Below the pieces are notes generated by a model. That model saw only the letters and a list, made by a program, of their open reading frames with translations. It had not been told where the DNA came from and made no database searches. Shown here in pieces: positions 21,740 to 41,408 of a stretch of DNA of 64,000 nt. Source of the DNA: Acidobacteriota bacterium (GTDB lineage: Bacteria > Acidobacteriota > Thermoanaerobaculia > Multivoradales > J023); contig JAJCXO010000232.1 of NCBI GenBank assembly GCA_029263395.1, positions 1 to 64,000 of the forward strand, written 5' to 3'. A program made the translations under genes and the position numbers. Numbering within the stretch: position 1 is the first letter of the stretch; each line of letters begins with the position of its first letter.

Positions 21740-23479
21740 CTATGGATTGGGTCGATCACTCTTGGACGCTTTCCCCTCGTGTTCCCGCTGCTTTGCCTCA
21801 AGGCGCCGGGCCTCGGCCTCACGGACGCGCTCATGGATCTCGGACGCCCGCTCCTCCAACTGCTGGAGCTCTTCCTCCAACTGTTTGGCCTGCTCCGCGA
21901 GGGCACGCTCATCGACCATTGACGCTCGAGCCTCTAGTTCCTGTAGCTCGAGCTCCAGACGCCGAGCATTCGCCTGGTGAGCTTTTGCCTTCATTTTCAC
22001 AGACTCAGCTCTCATTGCACGGTGCTGCTCCTGCAACATATGCTGGGCCTTCTCCTCGCCAGCCTGCGCCTTCACCTTCGACGTCTTGGCTGCCTTTTCC
22101 CAAAGCTCCAACTCCAAACGCTGAGCCTCGGCCAGACGAGCCTGCTCTTCGGCCTCTGATGACCGCGCCTCGAGATCCCGCAGCTGCTGCTTCAACATGC
22201 GCCGGGCTTCCACCTCGCCAAATCGCGCATGCATCTCGGCAGATCGAGCGTGCAGTTCCCGCATCTGCTCTTGCACCAGCCGTCGTTCCTTGGCCGGGAG
22301 AGCGTCCTCACCCCCCTTCGACATGCGAGCCTGTAACGCCTCGAGGGCGTCTTGGAGACGCTTGGCCTCCACCTCGAGACTACGCTCGTCCGCCATCAAA
22401 TCCGGATCAGAACCTGCTTCTGGCACCGCTGGCGCTGCAAACGTCAGACTGGCGATCGGCAACAGAACGAGGGTCACCAGCACCGCCACCAAAACTTCCG
22501 TGACTCGAGAGCGTTTCCGACTGGGGCTTGTTTCCAAACTGGAGGTACTTTCCAAAATAGCCATGATGCGTCCTTCTAGTTGAGATCGAGCCGCCATGAC
22601 CGGCGAGAGGCTCGCGCCTCCACGGTAGGCCATTGCGGTCTCGAGGAGTTGATCGGCGTAAATTGCGGACGGAACCCCCTGCTCGACGACCAGCTGGTCA
22701 CAGGCCAGCTCGCGCTCCAGAGTCAGGCGACGTTGCAACCACCAGACAAGGGGATTGAACCAGTGGACGGCGCAGGCCAGGTGACCGATCAAGGTCACTG
22801 GGATGTCGCGCCGGGAGACGTGGCCGAGCTCGTGGGCCAACACCGCACGCCGACGCTCGACCGACCACGTGTCACAATCCTCAGGCAGCAGGACAGTCGG
22901 CCGAACGAGCCCCCAGACGAGAGGCATCGCTCGGCCCGACCGTCGCCGCAGCTCAACCGCCAGAGAGAGTCCGAGTCGACGCTGGATGGTAGCCAGCAAG
23001 GCAAGCCAGTTCTCGTCAACAATCGGCTCGGCACGACGGACCGCTAGGTTGCTCGCCAGCACTCGGGTGATTAGCAGCGCCAACAAAGCCAGCGCCCCCA
23101 GGGACCAACCCAGCAGCAGCCAGTCACTGGACCCCACGGTCTCAGATATCGTCGGCGACAATACCGCTCCCCCTGAATCCGCCGCGATCGCCGAATGCCC
23201 GCTGGGTTTTTGGCCCATGTCAAACGTCTCGAAGCTCGGGGTCGCTAGCCTCGGGACCACATCCCAGCTTGGCAAGACCCAAGCGAGTATGGGTACCACG
23301 AGGCTAGCCAAGAGTGCCAATGCGATCGTCAGGTGACGGATCGACGCCGGCATCCGGCACATGGCGAGCAGCCCGAACCGAGTCAACAACAGAATCAACG
23401 TGACTTTGAATGCAATCAGCAGCCCAGTGGAGAGAACCTCGGAACCGCCCAACGTTTGGAGAATCCAGGGATCCAACAT
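21740..23479 (-). CDS. BlaR1/MecR1-type M56 metalloprotease with a long coiled-coil tail
   Basis: A 579-residue membrane protease. The start at 23479 overlaps the blaI stop (TGATG), so most of the longer open frame upstream is a shadow of blaI. TM helices lie near 20-40, 48-70 and 120-142. The zinc site HELGH is at 216-220, with ERELACDQLVV about 45 residues later as the third-ligand region. Another TM lies near 315-335. The C-terminal ~230 residues are almost pure charged coiled coil (repeated LE.R..E..AR.AEA), replacing the beta-lactam sensor of BlaR1. It likely cleaves or triggers cleavage of the adjacent repressor in response to an envelope signal. Confidence 0.9.
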   Translation of the reverse strand: MLDPWILQTLGGSEVLSTGLLIAFKVTLILLLTRFGLLAMCRMPASIRHLTIALALLASLVVPILAWVLPSWDVVPRLATPSFETFDMGQKPSGHSAIAADSGGAVLSPTISETVGSSDWLLLGWSLGALALLALLITRVLASNLAVRRAEPIVDENWLALLATIQRRLGLSLAVELRRRSGRAMPLVWGLVRPTVLLPEDCDTWSVERRRAVLAHELGHVSRRDIPVTLIGHLACAVHWFNPLVWWLQRRLTLERELACDQLVVEQGVPSAIYADQLLETAMAYRGGASLSPVMAARSQLEGRIMAILESTSSLETSPSRKRSRVTEVLVAVLVTLVLLPIASLTFAAPAVPEAGSDPDLMADERSLEVEAKRLQDALEALQARMSKGGEDALPAKERRLVQEQMRELHARSAEMHARFGEVEARRMLKQQLRDLEARSSEAEEQARLAEAQRLELELWEKAAKTSKVKAQAGEEKAQHMLQEQHRAMRAESVKMKAKAHQANARRLELELQELEARASMVDERALAEQAKQLEEELQQLEERASEIHERVREAEARRLEAKQREHEGKASKSDRPNP

Positions 23480-23868
23480 CAAGGCAACTCTTGCTTGGCC
23501 TGATCGATCAGATGCTGGATGCGATCCAGCTCCTCCACATCGATCTCGGTTTTGGGATCTGCGAAGTGTGCTGCCACGGCGTCTCCCACCGAGCCCCGAA
23601 AGAACGTCCCGAGTACTGTCGACAACGCCGCTCGAGCGGCCTGTGTCCGCGCCACCGCGGGACGATACAAGTGTCGCCGACCCTCCTTCTGGCGTCGAAC
23701 ATAACCCTTGCCTTCGAGGATCCTCAACAGCGTGCGGACGGCAGTGTCGGTCGGCGGGTCGGGCATACCGGCGGCGATCTCGACCACTGAAGCCTGCCGC
23801 TGTTGGAATAGGACGTTCATGATCTGTCGCTCTCGTCGGCTGAGATTCAGGTCGTGGGTTTTGGCCAT
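23479..23868 (-). CDS. blaI: BlaI/MecI/CopY-type repressor
   Basis: A 129-residue winged-helix repressor. The start at 23868 is chosen because CAGGAGAG lies about 8 bases upstream. The N-terminal LSRRERQIMNVLFQQRQASVVEIAAGM and TAVRTLLRILEGKGYVRRQKEGRRHLYRP are the HTH and wing; the C-terminal helix dimerises. It forms an operon with the M56 protease (1-base overlap). Two matching palindromes flank a canonical promoter just upstream, so autorepression is very likely. Confidence 0.95.
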   Translation of the reverse strand: MAKTHDLNLSRRERQIMNVLFQQRQASVVEIAAGMPDPPTDTAVRTLLRILEGKGYVRRQKEGRRHLYRPAVARTQAARAALSTVLGTFFRGSVGDAVAAHFADPKTEIDVEELDRIQHLIDQAKQELP

Positions 23869-23920
23869 CAAATACTCTCCTGATATTGATCGACAGCACG
23901 CCCTGCAGCGCATCTCCAAC

Positions 23921-24215: not shown

Positions 24216-25946
24216 ATGAATCTTCTCAAGCAAGCCTCATGGATCTTCGCCCTGTCCGCCCTCCTAGCCGGCTCCGTATCGGCCCAGCCCGCAAGCGACG
24301 CCCCCTTGCCGGAAGCCTGGTTCGCCATCTCCGAAACCGGACCGTGGGTGGTACGGATCGCCTTTGACGCTCGGCAGACTGCTGATGACCTCTACCAACG
24401 GATCGACGTGTGGCAGATCCGACACGACGAGGGAGTGCTCGAGGCTCTGGTGTCAGCGGACGAAGCGCAGCAGCTGCGCGGTGAGGGATTTGTCCTCGCG
24501 GTCGCTGAAGAGAAGACGCGCACCCTGGCGCGTCTCGGTATTCCGTTGCCCGATCAAGGCGGTGGGATCCCGGGCTTCCCGTGTTACCGCACTGTCGAAG
24601 AGACCTACGCCACTGCTGAGGCAATTGTCGCCGCAAACCCAGGCTTGGCAACCTGGACCGACGTCGGCGACTCGTGGGAGAAGCTTCAAGACCCGAACAA
24701 CGGCTGGGACATTTTTGTGCTCGAGCTGACTCAGTCAACGGTACCCGGTCCCAAGCCGGTATTTTTTGCCAACTTCGCAATTCACTCCCGTGAATACACC
24801 ACCGCCGAACTCGGCACAAGATTCGCTGAATATCTGGTCGACAATTACGATGTGGACCCAGATATCACCTGGTTGCTGGACCATCACGAAGTCCACCTGA
24901 TGCTCCAGAGCAACCCGGACGGACGCAAACAGGCTGAGAGCGGATTGTTTTGGCGTAAAAACGCCAACAACAACTACTGTTCCAACACCAATGACCGCGG
25001 TGCGGATCTCAATCGCAACTTCGATTTCGAGTGGAATTGCTGCGGCGGGTCGTCTGGCAGCCAATGTAACCAGACCTACCGTGGCCCCTCGGCGGCCTCC
25101 GAGCCTGAAATCCAGGTGCTACAGAACTACGTCCGCTCGATCTTCCCGGATCAGCGGGGCCCTGGCTTGAACGACCCCGCTCCCGCCGACGCTACCGGTG
25201 TTGCGATCGATGTTCATGCGTCTGGAGAATTGGTGTTGTGGTCCTGGGGTTTCACTTTTGATCCGCCACCCAACGGTACCGCTCTCAGAACTTTTGGCCG
25301 CAAGTTAGCCTTCTTCAACGACCACACTCCCCTGTCGGTCCGCGAACTGACCAACGCCGATGGTGGTAGCTCTGATTTCTATTATGGTGAGCTCGGGGTT
25401 GCGGGTATGGGATATGAGCTCGGAACCCAGTTCTTTGAAAGCTGCACGTTCTTCGAGAACAACATCCTGCAGGTCAACATCGACTCGTTGGTCTACGGGG
25501 CCAAGGTTGCCCGCACGCCCTACCTCACCCCCGCTGGACCTGAGGCGTTCGACGCCACCGCACCCACCGACCCGGTCTCCCCAGGCGAGCTGGTGTTGCT
25601 GACTGCAACCCTCGACGACACTCGCTTCAACAACTCCAACGGCACCGAGCCAACGGAGACCATCACCATCGCTGAAGCCTTCGTCGACGTGCCACCATGG
25701 GACGATTCCGCCATCCCCCTCGCAATGATCGCCTCCGACGGCACTTTTGACGAGGGCGTCGAGCAGGTCGAAACGATGCTCGACACCACCGGACTCTCGG
25801 GCGGGCGTCACATGCTCTATGTGCGCGGCACTGACTCCGCCGGCAACCAGGGCGTCGTCGCCGCGGCCTTTCTCACCATCGATAGCGGATCGATCTTCGC
25901 GGATGGCTTCGAAAGCGGTAATACGTCGGCGTGGTCGGCGCGATAG
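24216..25946 (+). CDS. secreted M14 zinc carboxypeptidase
   Basis: A 576-residue exported peptidase. The ATG at 24216 is chosen because a classic signal peptide follows at once (LLKQASWIFALSALLAGSVSAQ). The M14 zinc ligands are H190 and E193 in HSREYTTAE, plus a later histidine in DVHASGEL near 333. The catalytic Glu is in the MGYELGTQFFES region near 400. The C-terminal third is a beta-sandwich-like add-on, ending in FADGFESGNTSAWS. Such DGFESG...W tails recur at the ends of secreted proteins in several bacterial groups and may be a sorting or processing signal (inference). It probably degrades extracellular peptides. Confidence 0.92.
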   Translation: MNLLKQASWIFALSALLAGSVSAQPASDAPLPEAWFAISETGPWVVRIAFDARQTADDLYQRIDVWQIRHDEGVLEALVSADEAQQLRGEGFVLAVAEEKTRTLARLGIPLPDQGGGIPGFPCYRTVEETYATAEAIVAANPGLATWTDVGDSWEKLQDPNNGWDIFVLELTQSTVPGPKPVFFANFAIHSREYTTAELGTRFAEYLVDNYDVDPDITWLLDHHEVHLMLQSNPDGRKQAESGLFWRKNANNNYCSNTNDRGADLNRNFDFEWNCCGGSSGSQCNQTYRGPSAASEPEIQVLQNYVRSIFPDQRGPGLNDPAPADATGVAIDVHASGELVLWSWGFTFDPPPNGTALRTFGRKLAFFNDHTPLSVRELTNADGGSSDFYYGELGVAGMGYELGTQFFESCTFFENNILQVNIDSLVYGAKVARTPYLTPAGPEAFDATAPTDPVSPGELVLLTATLDDTRFNNSNGTEPTETITIAEAFVDVPPWDDSAIPLAMIASDGTFDEGVEQVETMLDTTGLSGGRHMLYVRGTDSAGNQGVVAAAFLTIDSGSIFADGFESGNTSAWSAR

Positions 25947-26025: not shown

Positions 26026-26360
26026 ATGGAGCTCAACACGGCAAAGCACAACTTCGACTTTGCCGTGATGATGCTCAACATGGTCAAGCACAAGTTCGGC
26101 TTTACCTCGATGAGACTCAACGCGGCAAAGCACAACTTTGGCTTGACCTCGATGAGACTCAACGCGGCAAAGCGCACCTTCGACTTGACCCCAATGAAGG
26201 TGAATCCGGCAAAGCGCAACTTCGACTTGACCCCGATGAGACTCAACACGGCAAAGCACAATACGGCCTGACCTCGATGAGTCCCAACATGGCAAAACAC
26301 AACTTCGGCTTGACCTCAATGAAGTTTGATGCGGCAAAGCACAACTTCGGCTTTTGGTCG
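26026..26360. repeat. 8 x 42-bp tandem repeat array
   Basis: Eight units begin with ATG at 26026, 26068, 26110, 26152, 26194, 26236, 26277 and 26319. The spacing is exactly 42 except for a 1-bp deletion in unit six. On the plus strand each encodes 14 residues of the form M-R-L-N-x-A-K-H-N-F-G-L-T-S. An 81-residue frame runs 26026-26271 until the deletion causes a stop; units 7-8 continue in the next frame. The minus strand is also open through most of the array, so translation cannot be decided. It fills most of the 423-bp gap between the M14 and pirin genes. Confidence 0.9.
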
Positions 26361-27429: not shown

Positions 27430-29844
27430 GTGCTTAGACGCCTGGCTTCAACCCCAATTGCTGGTCCTATGCGCTCGCGAGACCGAGCCGATGAATCGAG
27501 TGTCGACGTGAAATATTGCCCACTATGCGGGACCGAGTATCCCGATGGGGACCTCTGCCCCACTGACCAGGCTGTTCTGATCCAGGTCCAGGACACCTCA
27601 GACCCTCTGATCGGCCAGGTGCTCAAAGGCACCTACCGCATCGAGGAACAGATTGGTGCGGGTGGCATGGGCGAGGTTTATCGCGCTGTCCAGATGCCCT
27701 TGGGCCGCGACGTGGCGATCAAATGCCTGCTGCCGAGCCTGCTGTCGACGCCTTCGATGGTGCAACGCTTCTTTCAGGAAGCGAAGCTGCTCAGTCAGCT
27801 GAACCATCCCAATGTCGTCAGCATCATCGACTTTGGCAACACCGAGGCCGGTCTGATTTTCATGGTCATGGAATTCCTCGATGGCTCGACCCTCGGCGAT
27901 CTGGTGCCGCAAGATCATGGACTGCCCATGCCTCAGGTGCTGCGCTTGATGCAGCAGGCCTGCTCAGGCGTCGGCGCCGCCCATCGCTGCAATCTGGTGC
28001 ATCGTGACCTCAAGCCCGAAAATGTTTTCGTCGCCCGCAGCGCTGGCGGCGAAGAGGTGGTGAAAGTACTCGACTTTGGGATCGCCAGGGTCCTCGAAGG
28101 TGAGCAGAATACACGCTTGACCCAAACCGGCATGCTGATGGGTACCCCAGGATTCATCGCACCGGAGCAAATTCAATCGACCTGCGAAGCGGACTCCAGG
28201 GCGGATATTTATGCCCTTGGGGCAATTCTCTATTTCATGCTCACCGGCGGCCGGCCGTACGAAGGTGCAACCCCGCAGTCGATTTTCGCGCAGCAGTTGA
28301 ATGACGCGCCGATTATGGATCTAGGCCGACTCGGCGAGTTTCCACAACTGGCCGCCGTGGTGCACAAAGCCATGCACATGGACCCCGCGGCTCGTTATCA
28401 ACAAGCCGAGGAAATTGCCGCCGCGCTAAACACCGCCTCCGATCCGACCCTGTCGCCAAGTGAGTTCACCGGTCACTCGACAGGGCGCCGCGCTTCAACA
28501 GCGACCACACCGCCCACGGTCATGACAAGGGCGCCTCAGACTGGCGACCGCCCCTTAGTACCAACCGTGGACATGCGCCCGACCGAGGTGATCCCACGGC
28601 CACAAAAGCGCACCTGGCTGGCACTGGTAGGGACTATCCTGCTCGTCGCGTTCATCGTCGCTGGTGTGTTCTGGCAGGCGCAAAAGGAGGGCCAGGTGGC
28701 TGGCGAAGAAGCGACCGCCAGCGACCGAGGGATCACTGCAGACCGTGTGCTGCTCGGCATGAGTGCGCCGTTTTCCGGCGCCTCTCGCGAGCTTGGCCGC
28801 GGTATGCAGCTCGGGATCGAAACCTGCCTGCTGGAGATCAACAAAGGCGGCGGGATTCATGGTCGTGAGCTCGAATTGATCGCCCTCGACGATGGCTACG
28901 AACCGAGTCGCACCGTCGCCAACATGGCCGAATTGTTATTCGAACGAAATATTTTCGCCGTGCTCGGCAATGTCGGGACACCAACCGCCGAGGTCGCCCT
29001 GCCACTGGCTCTCGAACAGAAGGTCCCCTTCTTCGGAGCTTTCACCGGCGCTGATCTGCTGCGCAAACAGCCACCGGACCGTTTTGTCTTCAACTATCGC
29101 GCTAGCTACTCCGAAGAAACCGCCGCCATCGTCGAATACTTCCTTGATGTTGCGGGCCTCGAGCCGTCGGAGATTGCCGTTTTTGCTCAAGAAGACAGTT
29201 TCGGTGATGCGGGCTACCGCGGGGTCGTCCACACGCTCGAACAACGCGGCTACCAAGCCTCGGTGCCGCGCCTGGGCTACCGACGCAACACGACGGCACT
29301 CGACAACGCGGTCCATGCCATCGTCGAACAGCATCCGCAAGTGCGAGCTTTGGTGCTGGTAGCGACGTATCGCCCCGCCGCGCAGCTCATTCGACAACTC
29401 ACGGATGCCGGTCGCGAGCTTTCCTACGCTAGCTTATCCTTCGTCGGCAGCCGCGCCTTTGTCGAAGAGCTGACCCGCATGGGGCCGCAGTACACCGAAG
29501 GGGTCATCGTGACCCAGGTTGTTCCACACTTCGAGTCGGACGACCCCGGCGTGGCGCGCTACCGAGAACAGTTGGCCCAACACTACCCAGCCGAGCAACC
29601 GGGTTTTGTCTCACTCGAGGGTTACCTCACGGCGCGCATATTCACCGAGGCCCTGAAGCGAGCTGGCGAGCAGCCGACGATCGAGTCCTTTGTAGATGCG
29701 GCAGAGTCGATCAAGGATCTCGATCTCGGCATCGGCTCGACCCTCCACTACAACCGTGATCGTCATCAGGCGACGAGCCGCGTCTGGGGAACGGTGCTCG
29801 ACAATGCAGGCCGCTATCAGGTGCTGCCACTAGCGGCGCACTGA
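27430..29844 (+). CDS. receptor Ser/Thr kinase with extracytoplasmic Leu/Ile/Val-type binding domain
   Basis: Up to 804 residues. The order is a zinc ribbon (YCPLCGTEYPDGDLCPTD, about 29-46), then a complete PknB-like kinase at about 66-330. The kinase has the glycine loop GAGGMGEVY, VAIK, HRDLKPENV, DFG and the APE equivalent APEQ. A Pro/Thr linker follows, then one TM helix (about 395-417), then a type 1 periplasmic binding fold like branched-chain amino-acid receptors (LLGMSAPFSG...GMQLGIE, IFAVLGNVGTPTAEVALPLA) to the end. This makes a single-protein receptor that could sense a small molecule outside and signal by phosphorylation inside. The start is uncertain (GTG 27430, ATG 27469 or GTG 27508). 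No transport genes are adjacent. Confidence 0.9.
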   Translation: MLRRLASTPIAGPMRSRDRADESSVDVKYCPLCGTEYPDGDLCPTDQAVLIQVQDTSDPLIGQVLKGTYRIEEQIGAGGMGEVYRAVQMPLGRDVAIKCLLPSLLSTPSMVQRFFQEAKLLSQLNHPNVVSIIDFGNTEAGLIFMVMEFLDGSTLGDLVPQDHGLPMPQVLRLMQQACSGVGAAHRCNLVHRDLKPENVFVARSAGGEEVVKVLDFGIARVLEGEQNTRLTQTGMLMGTPGFIAPEQIQSTCEADSRADIYALGAILYFMLTGGRPYEGATPQSIFAQQLNDAPIMDLGRLGEFPQLAAVVHKAMHMDPAARYQQAEEIAAALNTASDPTLSPSEFTGHSTGRRASTATTPPTVMTRAPQTGDRPLVPTVDMRPTEVIPRPQKRTWLALVGTILLVAFIVAGVFWQAQKEGQVAGEEATASDRGITADRVLLGMSAPFSGASRELGRGMQLGIETCLLEINKGGGIHGRELELIALDDGYEPSRTVANMAELLFERNIFAVLGNVGTPTAEVALPLALEQKVPFFGAFTGADLLRKQPPDRFVFNYRASYSEETAAIVEYFLDVAGLEPSEIAVFAQEDSFGDAGYRGVVHTLEQRGYQASVPRLGYRRNTTALDNAVHAIVEQHPQVRALVLVATYRPAAQLIRQLTDAGRELSYASLSFVGSRAFVEELTRMGPQYTEGVIVTQVVPHFESDDPGVARYREQLAQHYPAEQPGFVSLEGYLTARIFTEALKRAGEQPTIESFVDAAESIKDLDLGIGSTLHYNRDRHQATSRVWGTVLDNAGRYQVLPLAAH

Positions 29845-30871: not shown

Positions 30872-30936
30872 GCCACAGCCACCGGATTAGCCACAGTCAC
30901 TGGATTGGAACACAATCACTGGATTGGAACACAGTG
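30872..30936. repeat. about 3.5 x 18-19-bp tandem repeat between zip and ppk2
   Basis: Units GCCACAGCCACCGGATTA, GCCACAGTCACTGGATTG and GAACACAATCACTGGATTG are followed by a partial copy that ends in the GTG start of the next gene. Confidence 0.85.
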
Positions 30937-31716
30937 CTCGAACACCTCGACCTCAATTTCAAGTTATCTAAGAAGCAGTACCAGGAACGCCTGCCGATCC
31001 TGCAACGTCGCTTACACCAGCTCCAGCAGGCTTGTTGGAATCAGCAGTTGGCCAGTGTGCTGGTGTTCGAGGGCTGGGACGCAGCCGGTAAGCTGAGTAC
31101 GATCCGCAAGCTGACCGAGTGGCTGGAGCCCCGCGGCTTCGACATGCACGCCACGGTGGCGGCACGCAGCACAGAGCTCCAGATGCCCTGGTTGTGGCGT
31201 TTCTGGATCAAGGTCCCGGACTACGGCCACATGGCAATTTTCGAGCGCTCCTGGTATCGCCGAGTGCTGATCGAACGGGTCGAAGAGCTGGTACCGCCAG
31301 AGGAGTGGCAACGCGCCTACGAGGAGATCACCTCATTTGAACGATCCCTGGCGGACGATCGTTACGAGGTCGTCAAGTTTTTCCTCCACATCGACCGAGC
31401 TGAGCAGCGGCGCCGTTTGAACCGGCTGCAGAAAGACAAGCGCAATGCCTGGCGGATAGAACCCACCCATTTGGAACGCCACGAGAAATACAGCGACTAT
31501 CTCGCGGCGGCCGAGGAAATGCTGGAACGCACCGAGGCCGAGTGGGCACCTTGGACCATCGTCGAAGCCACCGACAAACGGTGGAGCCGGGTCAAGATCT
31601 TCGAGAGCTTGATTGCACGGCTGGAGACCGGACTGGCGAAACGCGGCCTCGAGGTACCGGCAGCGATCGAGCCGGTCGACCCGGGCCACGAGACTCTGGA
31701 GGTTTTAGATCCTTGA
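30934..31716 (+). CDS. polyphosphate kinase 2 family protein (first of a pair)
   Basis: A 260-residue PPK2-fold kinase. Walker A GWDAAGK is at 47-53, and the lid/Walker B region FERSWYRRVLIERVEE is typical of PPK2 enzymes, which move phosphate between polyphosphate and nucleotides. The position after the P-loop has LSTI instead of the usual GGTI. Its start is GTG. The second PPK2 gene overlaps its stop. The pair resembles single-polypeptide two-domain PPK2 enzymes split in two, so a heterodimer is plausible. Confidence 0.85.
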   Translation: MLEHLDLNFKLSKKQYQERLPILQRRLHQLQQACWNQQLASVLVFEGWDAAGKLSTIRKLTEWLEPRGFDMHATVAARSTELQMPWLWRFWIKVPDYGHMAIFERSWYRRVLIERVEELVPPEEWQRAYEEITSFERSLADDRYEVVKFFLHIDRAEQRRRLNRLQKDKRNAWRIEPTHLERHEKYSDYLAAAEEMLERTEAEWAPWTIVEATDKRWSRVKIFESLIARLETGLAKRGLEVPAAIEPVDPGHETLEVLDP

Positions 31717-32441
31717 CGATACTCGGCAAGCTCGATCTCACCAAGTCGCTGGACAAGCAGGAGTACAAGACGCAACTGCTCGAGTATCAACTCCGGCTGC
31801 GGGACGCCGCTTTTCGGTGTTATCAGCAACACCAATCAGTCATTGTCGTTTACGAAGGCTGGGATGCAGCCGGCAAGGGTGGCAGTATCCGCCGCTTGAC
31901 CGAGAAGCTCGACCCCCGCGGCTACCACGTCTACTCGATTGCAGCGCCGAAGATCGGTCGCAAGCGTTTTTTCCTGTGGCGCTTTTGGCGCCGCTTGCTG
32001 CCGCCGGACGAGAAGCAGATCACGATTTTTGACCGCAGCTGGTACGGCCGCGTCCTGGTCGAGCGAGTGGAGGGTTTTGCCGAGGAGCAAGATTGGAAAC
32101 GAGCCTATCGCGAGATCAACGATTTCGAGCGCGAGTTGACAGCTCAGGGTATCTTACTCGTCAAGTTTTGGTTCCAGATCGATCCCGATGAACAATTGCG
32201 GCGATTCGAAGCACGGAAGCTGATCCCCCACAAGCGCTGGAAGCTGACCGATGAGGACTACCGCAATCGGGAGAGATGGGCTGATTACGAAGTCGCCATC
32301 GACGAGATGCTGCTCAAAACCAGCACACTGACGGCTCCATGGACGGTGATTGAGGGTAATGACAAATATTACGCACGGGTCAAGAGCCTGCGTCACATGG
32401 TTGAAACGCTCGAAGCGAAACTCGACGAGGCCGCCGAATAG
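31713..32441 (+). CDS. polyphosphate kinase 2 family protein (second of a pair)
   Basis: A 242-residue PPK2. The start is taken as the TTG at 31713, whose last two bases begin the previous stop (TTGA), because GGAGG lies about 10 bases upstream and the conserved N terminus begins there. The Walker A GWDAAGKGGSI is intact, with DPRGYHVYSIAAP and FDRSWYGRVLVERVEG following as in canonical PPK2. This copy keeps the glycine-rich P-loop tail lost in its partner and is probably the active subunit. Confidence 0.88.
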   Translation: MTILGKLDLTKSLDKQEYKTQLLEYQLRLRDAAFRCYQQHQSVIVVYEGWDAAGKGGSIRRLTEKLDPRGYHVYSIAAPKIGRKRFFLWRFWRRLLPPDEKQITIFDRSWYGRVLVERVEGFAEEQDWKRAYREINDFERELTAQGILLVKFWFQIDPDEQLRRFEARKLIPHKRWKLTDEDYRNRERWADYEVAIDEMLLKTSTLTAPWTVIEGNDKYYARVKSLRHMVETLEAKLDEAAE

Positions 32442-35559: not shown

Positions 35560-35793
35560 GGGTTCTCCTTTCCAAGATGAATGACTATGGTCACCGACTG
35601 TGGTCGCCGAACTTTGTACCGGGTTGACCAGCCTAGTCAACCCTTTTCTCTTGACGCCCATGGTTGCACAAGCCATTGTTGCTGGTTGAGCCTGTATGAA
35701 CCTTTCCAGACCTTGATCTGACTCCGCACGCGTCGTCCATCCCAACAGGCTGGGTTGGTGGTAGACTCCCGCCGCTGCACGGGACAGCAGATC

Positions 35794-37545
35794 ATGGACA
35801 AGATCGGAAAATACGAAGTCCTCGATAAGATCGGGTCGGGTGGGTTTGCGGTCGTCTACAAAGGTTACGACCCATTCATCAAGCGCCCGGTTGCCATCAA
35901 GGTGTGCTACTCGCGCGACGAGGAGACCCGCAAGCGATTCCATCGTGAGGCGGAGATAGCTGGTCGCCTGGTGCATCGCAACATTACCGCGGTGTATGAC
36001 TTCGGGCTGCACGAGCAGATGCCTTACTTGGTGGAGGAATATCTACCGGGGGAAGACCTCGCGCATATGATTCGACGGCGCGAGCCCGAAGCCTTGGAGG
36101 AGAAGCTGGATGTTTTGCTACAGATCGCCAGCGGGCTCGGATTTGCCCACTCGCGAGAAGTGATCCACCGCGACATCAAGCCATCGAACATTCGGATCCT
36201 CGACAACGGCCGAGTGAAGATCATGGATTTTGGCACTGCCAAGCTGGCCAACGTCGAGAGTAATCTAACCCAGACCGGAATGACCCTCGGTACGGTCGCT
36301 TACCTCTCCCCGGAACGCCTGTTGGGCAAACCGTCGGGTACCAACTCCGATCTGTTCTCCTACGGGGTCCTCGGCTACGAGCTGTTGTCGTTCCGGCGAC
36401 CGTTCATCGGCCGTAACATCCCCAACTTGATCGACCAGGTGCTGAATGCCTCGCCGGTGCCACTGGCCGAAAGCTGGCCCGACTGTCCACCCAGCCTGGC
36501 CGTTGTTATTCACAAATGCCTGTCAAAGGATCCGACGACTCGTTACGCGTCCTGTGTCGAGTTGACTCGCGATCTCGAGCAGGTACGGGCCGAGACCTGC
36601 TCCTACCAAGATCCGACCACCGGGACGATCAGCACAGCACTCTCCGCTGACATCAAGCTCTCTGGACTGCTGGAGCACGCTCGAGAGCTATACAACCGCG
36701 GCAAGCTGCAACGATCCAGTGTGCTACTCGACGAAGTGCTGGAGATCGCCCCTGATCACGCTGAAGCCAAACGTCTGCTAGCAGCCTGCCACCAGACTGC
36801 CGCACCCGATCTCGAGGGGACCGCGACTGTCGCCACTCAGACCGGTACTGTCCCTCAGACCGGTACTGTCTCACAGACTGGTGTAATCCCCCAGACAAGC
36901 CCCGGCGATCAACTCGTGTCTGAGACACAGACGATTTCTGAGATACCCGAATCGACCCAAGTCTCGACTTCGATCTCATCTTGGGAAGCGCCGGCAGCCA
37001 GACAACAGCGCAAGATCGGTGAGGCTATTTCGAGCATCGAAGGTTACGTCAAGGCCGGGCAACTGGTGGGTGCCGCCAAGGCGCTCGAGTTCGCGACGCA
37101 GTTCCTCGGCGACTTCGATCAGACCGAAACGCTGAGGCAACGTATAGTGGACGCAGCCAAGGCCGAGGTAGCAGGTGTCCGCGAAACCGCGCTGAGCCAG
37201 GCTCACAGTATGGTCGAAACGATGGCCGAACTGCGCCGCAAGAACCGTTTGCCGATCGAGCAAGCGCAACGCATCGTCGACTGTGTCCACACTTTCGATC
37301 CCGACGATCTTGCCGGTCGCCACATCCTCGCCGCCCTTCACCAAGACGCTCAGGCCAAACCCTCGCGAGCTCCGGACCCAAAACAACAGGAAGCCATCGA
37401 AAGTATCGAGAGGCTACTAGACGAGGGGGATCCAGCGATGGCCGAACGAGCACTGCGCTTCGCTGTCCAGCTGTTTGGAGAGTTCGACCAAACCCAGCGG
37501 CTCGAGCAACGCATCTCGGATGCTCTGCGTCGGTCTCAAACCTAA
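35794..37545 (+). CDS. cytosolic Ser/Thr protein kinase with tandem C-terminal helical repeats
   Basis: 583 residues, starting at the ATG 35794. The kinase domain is at about 7-265 with GSGGFAVVYKGYDPFIKRPVAIK, HRDIKPSNI, DFG and a TQTGMTLGTVAYLSPE activation loop. After a Thr/Gln linker with an 18-bp repeat (QTGTVP units, DNA 36829-36895) come two homologous ~50-residue helical segments (near 410-460 and 530-580, each ending GEFDQT..L.QRI.DA). No TM helix is visible, so it should be cytosolic. It is closely related to the next kinase gene, with the same YDPFIKR signature, so the two arose by duplication. Confidence 0.9.
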   Translation: MDKIGKYEVLDKIGSGGFAVVYKGYDPFIKRPVAIKVCYSRDEETRKRFHREAEIAGRLVHRNITAVYDFGLHEQMPYLVEEYLPGEDLAHMIRRREPEALEEKLDVLLQIASGLGFAHSREVIHRDIKPSNIRILDNGRVKIMDFGTAKLANVESNLTQTGMTLGTVAYLSPERLLGKPSGTNSDLFSYGVLGYELLSFRRPFIGRNIPNLIDQVLNASPVPLAESWPDCPPSLAVVIHKCLSKDPTTRYASCVELTRDLEQVRAETCSYQDPTTGTISTALSADIKLSGLLEHARELYNRGKLQRSSVLLDEVLEIAPDHAEAKRLLAACHQTAAPDLEGTATVATQTGTVPQTGTVSQTGVIPQTSPGDQLVSETQTISEIPESTQVSTSISSWEAPAARQQRKIGEAISSIEGYVKAGQLVGAAKALEFATQFLGDFDQTETLRQRIVDAAKAEVAGVRETALSQAHSMVETMAELRRKNRLPIEQAQRIVDCVHTFDPDDLAGRHILAALHQDAQAKPSRAPDPKQQEAIESIERLLDEGDPAMAERALRFAVQLFGEFDQTQRLEQRISDALRRSQT

Positions 37546-37639
37546 CCCGGCCCGAGCCACCCAGCAGCCCCCTCACCACCGCACCCACGGCGCGGACCGT
37601 GGGGTGCTAAACTCGCAGAGCTAGCAGGTTTCGTGCGTC

Positions 37640-39580
37640 ATGGAGAACATCGGCAAATACAAGATTGAGAAGAAGATCGGCTCCGGCGGTTTCGGAGAGG
37701 TATTCAAGGGCTACGATCCGTTTATCAAGCGTCACGTAGCGGTCAAAACTTGTAGTTCCCAAGACGAGGAGATCCGTAATCGCTTCTTTCAAGAAGCCGA
37801 GATCGCCGGCAACCTCCAGCACCGCAACATCACTACGGTCTACGACTTTGGCATCCACAACGGGCTGCCCTATCTGATCCAAGAGTACTTGTCGGGGGAA
37901 GATCTCGACACCAAGATCAAGCGTCACGACTTCCTGCCCTACCCAGAGAAGCTCTACTACCTGCTGCAGATTGCCCGTGGCTTAGCGCAGGCCCACACCA
38001 AGGGCGTCATCCATCGCGACATCAAGCCAGCCAACATCCGGGTGCTGGAAGATGGCATGGTCAAGATCATGGATTTTGGCATCGCCAAATTGGCCCAGCA
38101 GGAAAGTGGCCTGACCCAGACCGGCATGACCTTGGGCACCGCCGCCTACCTCGCTCCCGAGCAGATACGCGGCGAGGATGTGGACCACCGGACCGATATC
38201 TTCTCTTTCGGCGTGCTCGCCTACGAGTTGCTGGCTAGTGAGCGGCCGTTTCAGGGGCAACAGATTTCGTCTGTCATCTATCAGGTGCTGCATCACGAGC
38301 CGACACCGCTGATCAACCTCGCTCCGAACACGCCGGCCGGCTTGGTGGCGATCGTGGAACGTTGTCTTTGTAAAGACTCCACTGAACGCTTCGCTAACGG
38401 TAGCGCCTTGGTCAAGGAGCTCGAAAGCCTGCAGCGAAGAGACCGCCCACAACCTGCTCACAAAAAGTCTGCTCGCAAAGAGTCTGCCCCCAAAGAGCCG
38501 CCGAGCCCAGCGCTGGACGCGTCCGAGCAACAAACCGAAACCTTGCACTACGATAGTCCGCAGCGCACGACACAACGCCTCGATACCCCGGCGCCGTCTG
38601 AAGCCATCACCCAGCACCAACGACCCACTGAGGCAGTCGCCACCGAGGCGGTCGCCACCGAAACAGTGGCAACCGCGACCGGACCTCAGCTTGAAGATAT
38701 CTCCTACCACACGGGGCAGCACGACGACAGCCAACGCGACTCGGTCGGGCCGCACTTCGCGGTGCAAGCCAAGCCATCCTCCCGTTGGTCGACAGTGGCC
38801 AGCGCCGTCACGCTGCTTTTGCTGGCGGCGATAGCTGCTGGCGCTGGCTGGTGGTTTGGCATGCGCGACGAATCTAGAGCTGAAACTGGGCGGGACGCCA
38901 CGGCGCTCGAAGATTCGGCCACAATCGATGTGAGCCCGACACTAACCGAGGAGGGAGCCGACTCTCAGACGCCGACGGGTGAAGGTACAACCGAGAGTTC
39001 AGTCTCAGAGACCTCCAAACCGAGTGAGGCCTCGAGCTCAGAAACGACAGCAGACAACACCGCCTCGAGTCCTGAGCCACTACCTGCCAAACCTTTGCCC
39101 GGGCGACTGATCCTGCCAATCGTCGATTGGACGCAAGGCATGACACTGCGGATCGCCAATAGGACCTACCAGTTGCGTGGCCGGCGCTCGATCGAACTAC
39201 CGCCAGGCAGCTACCAGGCGGTCTTCGAACTCGACGCCGAAGATTACAATCCAGCACCGCGCACCGTGCAGGTCTCAATCGTCGAAGGTAAGCCCAAACG
39301 GCTAGCCATCGCAATTCCACAACCGGGGGTGCTCACCATCCGCCCGCTGCCGTTACGATCACAGGGCGAGGCACTGATCGACGGCGAGCCGGTGGGCCCA
39401 ACGCCACTGAACAAAGTCAAACGCGAGCCGGGCGAGTACACTATCGAGATCCGCCCCCAGGGTGACGACGGGGAGGGATTGACCGAGACTGTCCGCTTGG
39501 AGTCGGGCAAGGAAGTCATCTTGTCATTTGATCTTGCTGCTGGCGAGATTCAATCGCACACCAAAACACTGCCTCGCTGA
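37640..39580 (+). CDS. membrane Ser/Thr protein kinase with an extracytoplasmic PEGA-like domain
   Basis: 646 residues. The kinase domain is at about 7-270 (GSGGFGEVFKGYDPFIKRHVAVK, HRDIKPANI, DFG, GTAAYLAPEQ). The linker has KSARKESAPKE repeats and three 15-bp units encoding EAVAT (38630-38674). One TM helix lies near 382-405, then an acidic Ser/Thr-rich stalk, then a PEGA-like beta domain at about 490-640 (PLPLRSQGEALIDGEPVGPTPLNKVKREPGEYTIEI). This PknB-with-PEGA layout is common in Acidobacteria and Myxobacteria. It is probably expressed with its sister kinase and the TPR-PDZ gene. Confidence 0.92.
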   Translation: MENIGKYKIEKKIGSGGFGEVFKGYDPFIKRHVAVKTCSSQDEEIRNRFFQEAEIAGNLQHRNITTVYDFGIHNGLPYLIQEYLSGEDLDTKIKRHDFLPYPEKLYYLLQIARGLAQAHTKGVIHRDIKPANIRVLEDGMVKIMDFGIAKLAQQESGLTQTGMTLGTAAYLAPEQIRGEDVDHRTDIFSFGVLAYELLASERPFQGQQISSVIYQVLHHEPTPLINLAPNTPAGLVAIVERCLCKDSTERFANGSALVKELESLQRRDRPQPAHKKSARKESAPKEPPSPALDASEQQTETLHYDSPQRTTQRLDTPAPSEAITQHQRPTEAVATEAVATETVATATGPQLEDISYHTGQHDDSQRDSVGPHFAVQAKPSSRWSTVASAVTLLLLAAIAAGAGWWFGMRDESRAETGRDATALEDSATIDVSPTLTEEGADSQTPTGEGTTESSVSETSKPSEASSSETTADNTASSPEPLPAKPLPGRLILPIVDWTQGMTLRIANRTYQLRGRRSIELPPGSYQAVFELDAEDYNPAPRTVQVSIVEGKPKRLAIAIPQPGVLTIRPLPLRSQGEALIDGEPVGPTPLNKVKREPGEYTIEIRPQGDDGEGLTETVRLESGKEVILSFDLAAGEIQSHTKTLPR

Positions 39581-39656
39581 GTAGCCGCTGCTCTAAAAAC
39601 GCCGCCTCTCCTGAAATACCGTTTCTCCTGGATCACAGTCTCTGAGCTCACCGAGC

Positions 39657-41408
39657 ATGAAATACCTCCTGACAATCTTTCGGATCACCCTGATCACCCT
39701 GATCGGCCTAGCTGGGCCAGCATCGGGCCAAGGCAATGCCGCCAACGGCGAAGATCTAGCAGCAGCCAGCGCCCTCGAAGAGCTCAGGCTATTGGCAGAG
39801 GAGAGTTTCGCAGAAGACGATCTGGATGCAGCGATTGCCTTATACCGACAACTGGCCGATCGTCATACGGTTCAAGATGAGAAGACCCGGGTTTTGATGA
39901 TTGTGGCCTACCTAGAGCAGTCTTCAGGCCGCCACAAGGATGCGGTCACCACCGTGCGCGACGCTCTCAGCGTCGACCCTGACTACACCTTCCGCGCCGA
40001 GCTTTACGACGAAGCCATGCGCAACGTGTTCTATCAGGGTCAGAAACTGGCGGTCGAGATGCGCTCTGAGCTCGCCGAGGAGCATATTCGTAAGGGCAAT
40101 GACCACTGGCGAGCCGGGCAATACGCCGAGGCCGGCCGGAGCTTCGCAACTGCCCTCGGCTACCAACCCGATCACCCCAAAGCGCTCTACAACCTAGCGC
40201 TGGCGCATCTCCAAGAACAGCGCTCCGAGGACGCCGAAGCCGGTTTCCAAAAACTGCTTGCACTGGGCGACCGAGTCGAAGCTAGCTTGCAGACGTTGGC
40301 GAGGGTCAACCTCGGTCATCTCTACCTACAGCGCGACCTCGCCCAAGAGGCGGAAGACATACTGCTGCAAGCGGTCGCGACCGAACCGTCAAACTCGAAG
40401 GCGTGGTCGATTCTCGGGGTGGCCCAGCGACAGCAGGGCAAATCATCAGACGCCGCCAACGCTTTCCGGCGATCGTATGAGCTGCAGCCGGATAACCCGG
40501 AAGCGATGAGTCACCTGGCGCTGGCCTACATCGACGCTGAAGATTGGCAACAAGCCGTCTCGATTCTCGAACGGGCCACCGTCGTCGACAACACCAACGC
40601 CAACCTCTGGTTACACTTGGGTCGCGCTCGCAACGGCCTGCATGGCCACGGGCAAGGCACATCTTCGCAGGCCATCGCCGCTTTCGAGAACGCGATCCGG
40701 CTCGATCCGAACGACGCTGGGGGCTGGGCCAGCAATGCCGCGGTGCACATGGCCCAACTGTATTACGAAACCCAAGCCTACACCCAGGCGGTCGCGCAGG
40801 CGGATCGCGCTCTGGCCTGGCGTAGCGATCTGGTCAACGCCCATGTCTACCAGGGACTGGCGAAGGAATCTCTCGGTGACTTGCACGGCGCCCGTGCAGG
40901 CCTCGAAACTGCCCGGCAACTCGATCCAACCCGCGCCGACACCCACTTCAACTTGGGCAGCGTGTACTATCAACTCGGTCTCTACGACGAAGCGGAAGCG
41001 GCGCTCGAACGGTCCTTGGCCATTCAGGCCAACTTCCCACGGGCCACGGAGCATCTACAAGCGGTTCGAGAGGCTCGTGACCGACCCCGGGTCACAGCAC
41101 CACCCGCATCAACTCGCCGAGGTCGCGCAACAGCAGCCAAAAAACCGCGCCTCGGGATTCGCTATGCCGACATCGACTACGCAGCGATTGGCCTCCGCGG
41201 TGCCATGGTGGAACGTGTCGAAGCAGGCAGTGCCGCCGCTCGTGCCGGGATCCGCAAAAACGATCTGATTCTGAAGGTTGATGGTCGTGACGTCACCAGC
41301 GCTGAGCAGCTCAAAGGGTACGTTGCCACACGCACTCGCGGTAGCCGATTGAGCTTCACGATTCTGCGGTCCAACGTCCCGACTTACGTTGACGTCACGC
41401 TCAACTGA
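39657..41408 (+). CDS. secreted TPR protein with C-terminal PDZ domain
   Basis: 583 residues with a signal peptide (about 1-22, ending ASGQ). It then has about ten tetratricopeptide units (e.g. AKALYNLALAHLQEQRSEDAEAGFQKL, NPEAMSHLALAYIDAEDWQQAVSIL, ADTHFNLGSVYYQLGLYDEAEAAL). The last 90 residues are a PDZ domain (LRGAMVERVEAGSAAARAGIRKNDLILKVDGRDVTSAEQL). It is a periplasmic scaffold by prediction. The gene is 76 bp after the PEGA kinase and may be a partner or reader of the extracytoplasmic PEGA domain. Confidence 0.88.
   Translation: MKYLLTIFRITLITLIGLAGPASGQGNAANGEDLAAASALEELRLLAEESFAEDDLDAAIALYRQLADRHTVQDEKTRVLMIVAYLEQSSGRHKDAVTTVRDALSVDPDYTFRAELYDEAMRNVFYQGQKLAVEMRSELAEEHIRKGNDHWRAGQYAEAGRSFATALGYQPDHPKALYNLALAHLQEQRSEDAEAGFQKLLALGDRVEASLQTLARVNLGHLYLQRDLAQEAEDILLQAVATEPSNSKAWSILGVAQRQQGKSSDAANAFRRSYELQPDNPEAMSHLALAYIDAEDWQQAVSILERATVVDNTNANLWLHLGRARNGLHGHGQGTSSQAIAAFENAIRLDPNDAGGWASNAAVHMAQLYYETQAYTQAVAQADRALAWRSDLVNAHVYQGLAKESLGDLHGARAGLETARQLDPTRADTHFNLGSVYYQLGLYDEAEAALERSLAIQANFPRATEHLQAVREARDRPRVTAPPASTRRGRATAAKKPRLGIRYADIDYAAIGLRGAMVERVEAGSAAARAGIRKNDLILKVDGRDVTSAEQLKGYVATRTRGSRLSFTILRSNVPTYVDVTLN

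Follow-up and report, generated by a model that had tools for sequence, protein, structure and literature searches.

What switches on bacterial Ser/Thr kinases is named as an outstanding question in the portion of PMC6069109 consulted here, and the present locus raises it in a particular form: is a kinase that shares one chain with a type 1 periplasmic binding protein (PBP) domain a receptor, and for what kind of ligand? The window, i.e. the whole stretch of 64,000 nucleotides analysed (contig JAJCXO010000232.1 of an Acidobacteriota bacterium), holds at 27430-29844 on the forward strand a single 804-aa open frame that shows zero internal stops in the ORF listing and its translation. The gene probably starts at GTG 27508 and not at 27430, because in two orthologs (L011 and L012) stops lie immediately 5' of the matching MKYCPxCG start; in L018 an ATG occupies the position matching GTG 27508, other orthologs have M/VKYCP at the N-terminus, and the 778-aa form opens with V/MKYCPLCG. 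An in-frame ATG at 27469 is a less likely candidate for the start. Residue numbers refer to the 778-aa form, save for the Pfam ranges 69-322 and 442-793, which refer to the 804-aa frame. Along the chain a CxxC...CxxD motif is followed by a PknB-like kinase, then by a linker predicted to be disordered, a single membrane helix and finally a complete PBP domain of type 1:

27508..29844, forward strand: receptor kinase gene, 778 aa from the probable start GTG 27508, placed by ortholog starts
27517..27567, forward strand: zinc-ribbon-like motif C4-x2-C7 ... C17-x2-D20, four positions invariant in 9 orthologs
27634..28395, forward strand: PknB-like Ser/Thr kinase domain (Pfam PF00069, E 9.6e-46; motifs)
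28450..28611, forward strand: Ser/Thr/Pro-rich juxtamembrane linker, residues 315-368, predicted disordered
28615..28689, forward strand: single transmembrane helix, residues 370-394 (predicted helix and hydropathy)
28753..29808, forward strand: type 1 periplasmic-binding (Venus flytrap) sensor domain (Peripla_BP_6; AF2 model; 4kv7)

The initial annotation had placed a zinc ribbon, a PknB-like kinase, a transmembrane helix and a PBP domain in a single chain, and this holds, given the one open frame, the Pfam domains and nine sequences that align end to end with the window protein at 54-81% identity; a frameshift or two separate genes are ruled out by the same uninterrupted frame and full-length alignment. 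The design is also a less common one, as had been proposed, the full-length protein being present in 10 of the 148 genomes of the class and 9 of 40 relatives sharing the architecture, own genome included in both counts. Draft assemblies of many contigs each might lead one to suspect that the fusion is an artefact of assembly or gene prediction, but the recurrence of the fused frame in those 10 genomes, and fused frames in Hahella and in other gammaproteobacterial and planctomycete records, refute this from independent assemblies and leave it a negligible chance. Among named matches, the best carry the labels Acidobacteriota and Thermoanaerobaculia, and one carries that of Deltaproteobacteria. 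In comparison with a genus-mate (L011), dN/dS by a simple counting method, at a dS of about 1, was 0.074 over ribbon and kinase and 0.093 over the PBP domain, against 0.43 in the linker and 0.23 in the transmembrane stretch, and both ends of the chain are under purifying selection.

At the N-terminus Cys4, Cys7, Cys17 and Asp20 are invariant in the nine aligned orthologs; what had been called a zinc ribbon is thus retained as a ribbon-like motif, but with Asp at the fourth position, hence CCCD. This motif is probably cytoplasmic and may bind zinc. The kinase match covers residues 69-322 at 156.7 bits (Pfam cut-off 31.7), and the marks of a Hanks-type kinase are all present and intact, namely the glycine loop GAGGMG, the lysine of VAIK, the catalytic aspartate of HRDLKPEN (D167), DFG (D189) and the APE of GTPGFIAPE. 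PknB is the nearest solved kinase (E 1.6e-51), in agreement with the first description of the domain, which is a Hanks-type (PknB-like) Ser/Thr kinase predicted to be catalytic. In the linker 23 of the 52 residues at 315-366 are Ser, Thr or Pro, and pLDDT stays below 50 at residues 315-372 of the full-length model. The single transmembrane helix proposed earlier is the sole membrane candidate: the chain has one strong hydrophobic stretch, with a 19-residue mean hydropathy of 2.61 and none above 1.5 elsewhere, it is modelled as a helix at 370-394, and Arg/Lys flank it on the kinase side. The kinase would lie in the cytoplasm and the PBP domain in the periplasm. At full length the model is of moderate quality (mean pLDDT 75.3, pTM 0.51, from a 12-sequence alignment) and serves solely for the helix and the disordered linker.

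The C-terminal domain matches Peripla_BP_6 over residues 442-793 and nearly the whole profile (positions 4-341 of 343; E 1.8e-54, 186.1 bits against a cut-off of 31.7), and its AF2 model, built from a 69-row alignment, reached a mean pLDDT of 96.4 and a pTM of 0.94. Among solved structures this model comes closest to a Rhodopirellula baltica protein, 4kv7, with 40% identity, a TM-score of 0.92, Z 54.0 and an rmsd of 1.5 across 359 residues; 3lop is next at 27-28% identity. Sequence family and two-lobe fold are both those of a type 1 PBP, and the complete periplasmic binding fold that the initial annotation had read from the letters is borne out. Solved LivJ, LivK and Leu/Ile/Val-binding entries are fold matches at about 14-18% identity. 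The qualifier "branched-chain amino-acid-type", in turn, survives for the fold but not beyond it: E. coli LivJ gives a weak sequence match of 25 bits, the NCBIfam LivJ-type model PRK15404 scores 44.9 bits against a cut-off of 477, and a key LivJ contact is replaced throughout the family, as detailed below. The domain belongs to a family separate from LivJ, with 4kv7 as the nearest structure.

In order to compare the pockets, the LivJ contacts were mapped by alignment, without coordinates, onto 87 family rows, L045, which is cut at a contig end, being left out of the counts. The ligand contacts of LivJ include Tyr18 (Trp in LivK), Ser79, Tyr150, Tyr202 and Glu226, the last of which grips the ligand amino group. 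In the alignment Glu226 corresponds to Ser644 in 87/87 rows and Ser79 to Thr491 in 87/87, Tyr150 to Phe/Tyr565, Tyr202 to Ala/Thr/Ser with Tyr621 one residue on, and Tyr18 to Leu429. Because several LivJ contacts are replaced and PRK15404 stays far under its cut-off, "branched-chain amino acid" is best taken to describe the fold and not the specificity. Gly490, Thr491, Pro492, Gly514 and Ser644, all at positions aligned with the LivJ pocket, are each found in 87/87 rows, fused and stand-alone forms alike; such near-frozen positions suggest a common ligand site, and on these aligned residues the family probably keeps a distinct, conserved pocket.

By a pattern-limited scan of bacterial and archaeal genomes, 352 proteins were confirmed as related to the PBP domain, and the analysis used the best 80. 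Among these best 80 of 352, kinase fusions account for 12, i.e. the five closest matches and L046, L057, L058, L062, L063, L064 and L069, all of these seven but L062 and L069 being confirmed by Pfam as well; they occur in Acidobacteriota, Gammaproteobacteria and Planctomycetota. Another 11 (L047, L048, L049, L050, L053-L056, L059, L060 and L065, mostly from Myxococcota-type genomes) carry DUF4388 at the N-terminus at E <= 0.001, 9 of them above the Pfam cut-off; one is cut short and 56 stand alone. In some DUF4388 fusions a ribbon motif like that of the receptor kinase is followed by a hydrophobic stretch and then the PBP domain, and DUF4388, a domain of unknown function, suggests itself as a signalling output. 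Stand-alone members mostly have a signal-like hydrophobic stretch before the domain, as read by eye. Downstream genes were scanned at 48 of the 56 stand-alone loci (eight, whose next ORF is antisense or missing, were omitted, and at L097 the second ORF was taken) and classed by Pfam together with an independent local profile and motif count. The 3' neighbour is a signalling gene in 42/48, with 30 histidine kinases, 8 chemoreceptors (MCP) and 4 GGDEF proteins without overlap, three downstream genes having TorS_sensor_domain matches; the other 6/48 fall in no sensor class, and some may be spurious ORFs. Upstream, at the 37 stand-alone loci with a same-strand ORF, receiver (8), sigma-54 activation (4), SpoIIE (4), CHASE2 (3) and kinase-like (3) domains were found. 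On plasmids, annotated relatives from Terrarubrum and Ruegeria have an MCP gene downstream, and the stand-alone R. europaea relative of 4kv7 (L113) adjoins a histidine-kinase gene; no signalling neighbour was found for a Bradyrhizobium plasmid relative (L121). This widespread family looks sensory and not devoted to nutrient uptake, and the contrast with chemoreceptors that had been drawn is misplaced, since stand-alone relatives themselves adjoin histidine kinases, chemoreceptors and GGDEF proteins. As a separate observation, in the Magnetococcales loci L091, L092 and L094 a large gene with a kinase-like domain lies directly upstream of the stand-alone PBP gene, possibly a split version of the receptor kinase.

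Peripla_BP_6 proteins are usually ABC partners, and in E. coli livK sits with livHMGF and livJ close by, from which one could imagine that the tethered PBP passes its ligand to an ABC permease while the kinase reports transporter load. This is highly improbable: ABC permease families were found in 0/19 window ORFs scanned with Pfam, and the stand-alone relatives adjoin sensors, permease families being absent from the listed neighbour tallies. A search for linked LivHM permease genes in those 19 ORFs and in the own genome found none, PF02653 (the LivH/M-type permease) lying on contig C248 only and the nine Peripla_BP_6 places all elsewhere; an uptake partner is disfavoured, as C248 carries no Peripla_BP_6.

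Two further readings concern the pocket of the domain. That the receptor recognises, like LivJ, an ordinary amino acid, branched-chain or not, and so reports starvation or nutrients, is in keeping with the Pfam fold family, with the names under which 4kv7 and several solved relatives were deposited, and with the split GlnH-GlnX-PknG pathway, which senses Asp, Glu and Asn according to the text of PMC6069109 available; nevertheless it seems unlikely, since Glu226 of LivJ is replaced by Ser in every row and Tyr202 is replaced too, and solved proteins of the same fold are also titled for aromatic acids, urea, amides and fatty acids. The same loss of the amino-group contact could instead mean that the domain no longer binds small ligands and has become a structural or protein-interaction module, which dimerises the kinase or touches another periplasmic protein. 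Type 1 PBP folds do include protein-contacting regulators, with the AmiC-AmiR complex 1qo0 among the fold matches, and in one relative a paralogue lacks the PBP domain with kinase and transmembrane helix intact (L033:3339-4559). We regard this loss of binding as distinctly unlikely, given that the five invariant pocket-aligned positions suggest a shared ligand site and that the dN/dS of the PBP domain is as low as reported above.

The history of the two halves was followed in separate trees. The PBP tree (90 rows, built by a quick search; L045, the near-duplicate L040 and 6 of 8 own paralogues left out) has a clade of 30 rows with SH-aLRT 99 that unites 15 STK-fused, 11 DUF4388-fused and 4 stand-alone rows, and 13 of the 15 STK-fused rows group together with a support of 90; two outgroup paralogues sit on very long branches, one of them misplaced inside the family. 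In the kinase tree (33 rows, weak and duplicate kinases removed) 15 of 16 fused kinases cluster with one paralogue that lacks the PBP domain, in a clade that excludes the other kinases sampled (bootstrap 99, SH-aLRT 96). From these two groupings it appears that kinase and PBP domain moved as one unit in the proteins of Acidobacteriota and Gammaproteobacteria. The kinase of the planctomycete L057 falls outside the clade, although a single clade is not rejected (p-AU 0.28), and a separate fusion event in Planctomycetota is likely. Peripla_BP_6 paralogues of the own genome were discarded as recent donors, the four that match scoring only 24-38 bits.

By its domains the protein is to be classed as a Hanks receptor kinase whose sensor is a type 1 PBP; it belongs neither to the PASTA kinases nor to the LivJ transport proteins. 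With PASTA kinases (PknB/PrkC-type) and PknD it shares a cytoplasmic Hanks kinase, a single transmembrane helix and a C-terminal extracytoplasmic sensor, but this sensor is a Venus flytrap PBP and the N-terminus bears the zinc-ribbon-like motif; no PASTA repeats were found in it by the Pfam scan, and the NCBIfam PASTA-kinase model NF033483 gave 295.8 bits against a cut-off of 450. TorT-TorS and LuxP-LuxQ are sensory pairs of a PBP and a histidine kinase, and in these, as in BvgS-type flytrap kinases, a transmembrane kinase takes its input from a periplasmic binding domain; they use a His-Asp phosphorelay, in contrast to the Ser/Thr phosphorylation within the same chain expected here. In Venus kinase receptors the flytrap is N-terminal, so that their domain order is opposite to that of the window protein. 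The invertebrate Venus kinase receptors, amino-acid activated and dimerising according to the part of PMC4026697 available, resemble it in design only, with a flytrap outside, one transmembrane helix and a kinase inside, whereas their kinase is an insulin-receptor-type tyrosine kinase of animal origin and the window kinase is nearest to PknB. In the actinobacterial GlnH-GlnX-PknG system a periplasmic solute-binding protein likewise puts a Ser/Thr kinase under nutrient control (PMC6069109, partial text), but through three proteins, a binding lipoprotein, a membrane protein and a kinase, instead of one chain. PBP domains fused to SpoIIE-type phosphatases in Sorangium, as described in the portion of PMC2887360 at hand, are therefore a precedent for PBP sensors on Ser/Thr signalling proteins. 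The R. baltica "Leu/Ile/Val-binding protein" 4kv7 shares the PBP family with the window protein, but was crystallised without a kinase. In Actinobacteria, fusions of kinase and substrate-binding domains have a RefSeq product name. Receptor kinases as a kind are already known, their sensors being PASTA repeats or beta-propellers in the accessible text of PMC6213207, and it is the modular sensor with a crystallised stand-alone relative which sets this one apart. A literature search among open-licence papers, whose silence weighs little, found no paper on the kinase-PBP architecture.

We consider it likely that the gene encodes a one-protein transmembrane receptor Ser/Thr kinase, in which closure of the flytrap on a ligand alters trans-autophosphorylation of the kinase. 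The C-terminal, periplasmic flytrap would close on a small soluble ligand, probably inside a dimer; the signal would be relayed via the one membrane helix and the flexible linker and would change trans-autophosphorylation of the cytoplasmic PknB-like kinase, which would then phosphorylate cytoplasmic targets. The initial annotation had anticipated a Ser/Thr receptor kinase with a soluble-ligand sensor, and domain order, intact motifs, the confidently modelled PBP domain, orthology and selection now favour it, ligand binding itself staying a prediction. More tentatively, the PBP domain may belong to an ancient sensory flytrap family that recognises one conserved ligand or ligand class other than a LivJ-type amino acid. 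Bacteria would have connected this family to five outputs or more, among them chemoreceptor, diguanylate cyclase, DUF4388, histidine kinase and Ser/Thr kinase, and the Ser/Thr form would be a true bacterial Venus kinase receptor. If this is true, the activating ligand could be found through the already crystallised stand-alone relative. The sensor bears a putative pocket, stand-alone relatives should be easily made, as 4kv7 illustrates, and the ligand of one soluble PBP family could fit the receptor kinase together with many histidine kinases, chemoreceptors and GGDEF proteins. With 153 kinase-domain matches in the host genome, even a single assigned stimulus would be a foothold.

Gene order around the receptor kinase offers little guidance: no conserved order was found beyond the genus, pirin and a few other neighbours are common to the genus only and point to no pathway, and a conserved operon was dropped as a functional clue. 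Second kinases near several orthologs are to be expected, because these genomes are kinase-rich; in the window itself a pair of Hanks kinases in tandem precedes a TPR-PDZ protein (35755-41408), an arrangement kept in the genus-mate. Downstream of the receptor kinase lie two adjacent PPK2 polyphosphate kinase genes (30934-32441), a pair also present near the ortholog in G004, but on the opposite side. A BlaI-type repressor adjoins a HELGH-motif gene, BlaR1-like by eye (21740-23919), and a homologous pair is found near the ortholog in L037. The PBP-less paralogue at L033:3339-4559, in a tandem region, has ribbon, kinase, linker and transmembrane helix and ends right after the latter, a natural domain-loss variant; the ORF after it reads like an ECF sigma factor, a label given by reading. 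Between the M14 peptidase and pirin genes sits a tandem array (26031-26354) of a 42-base unit in 7.7 copies with 78% match and a 126-base higher-order period. Finally, a C-terminal motif, approximately F.DGFESGNT..WS, is common to a protein of the window, at 25890-25946, and to one encoded upstream of the L014 kinase gene, and is perhaps a sorting signal of these Acidobacteriota.
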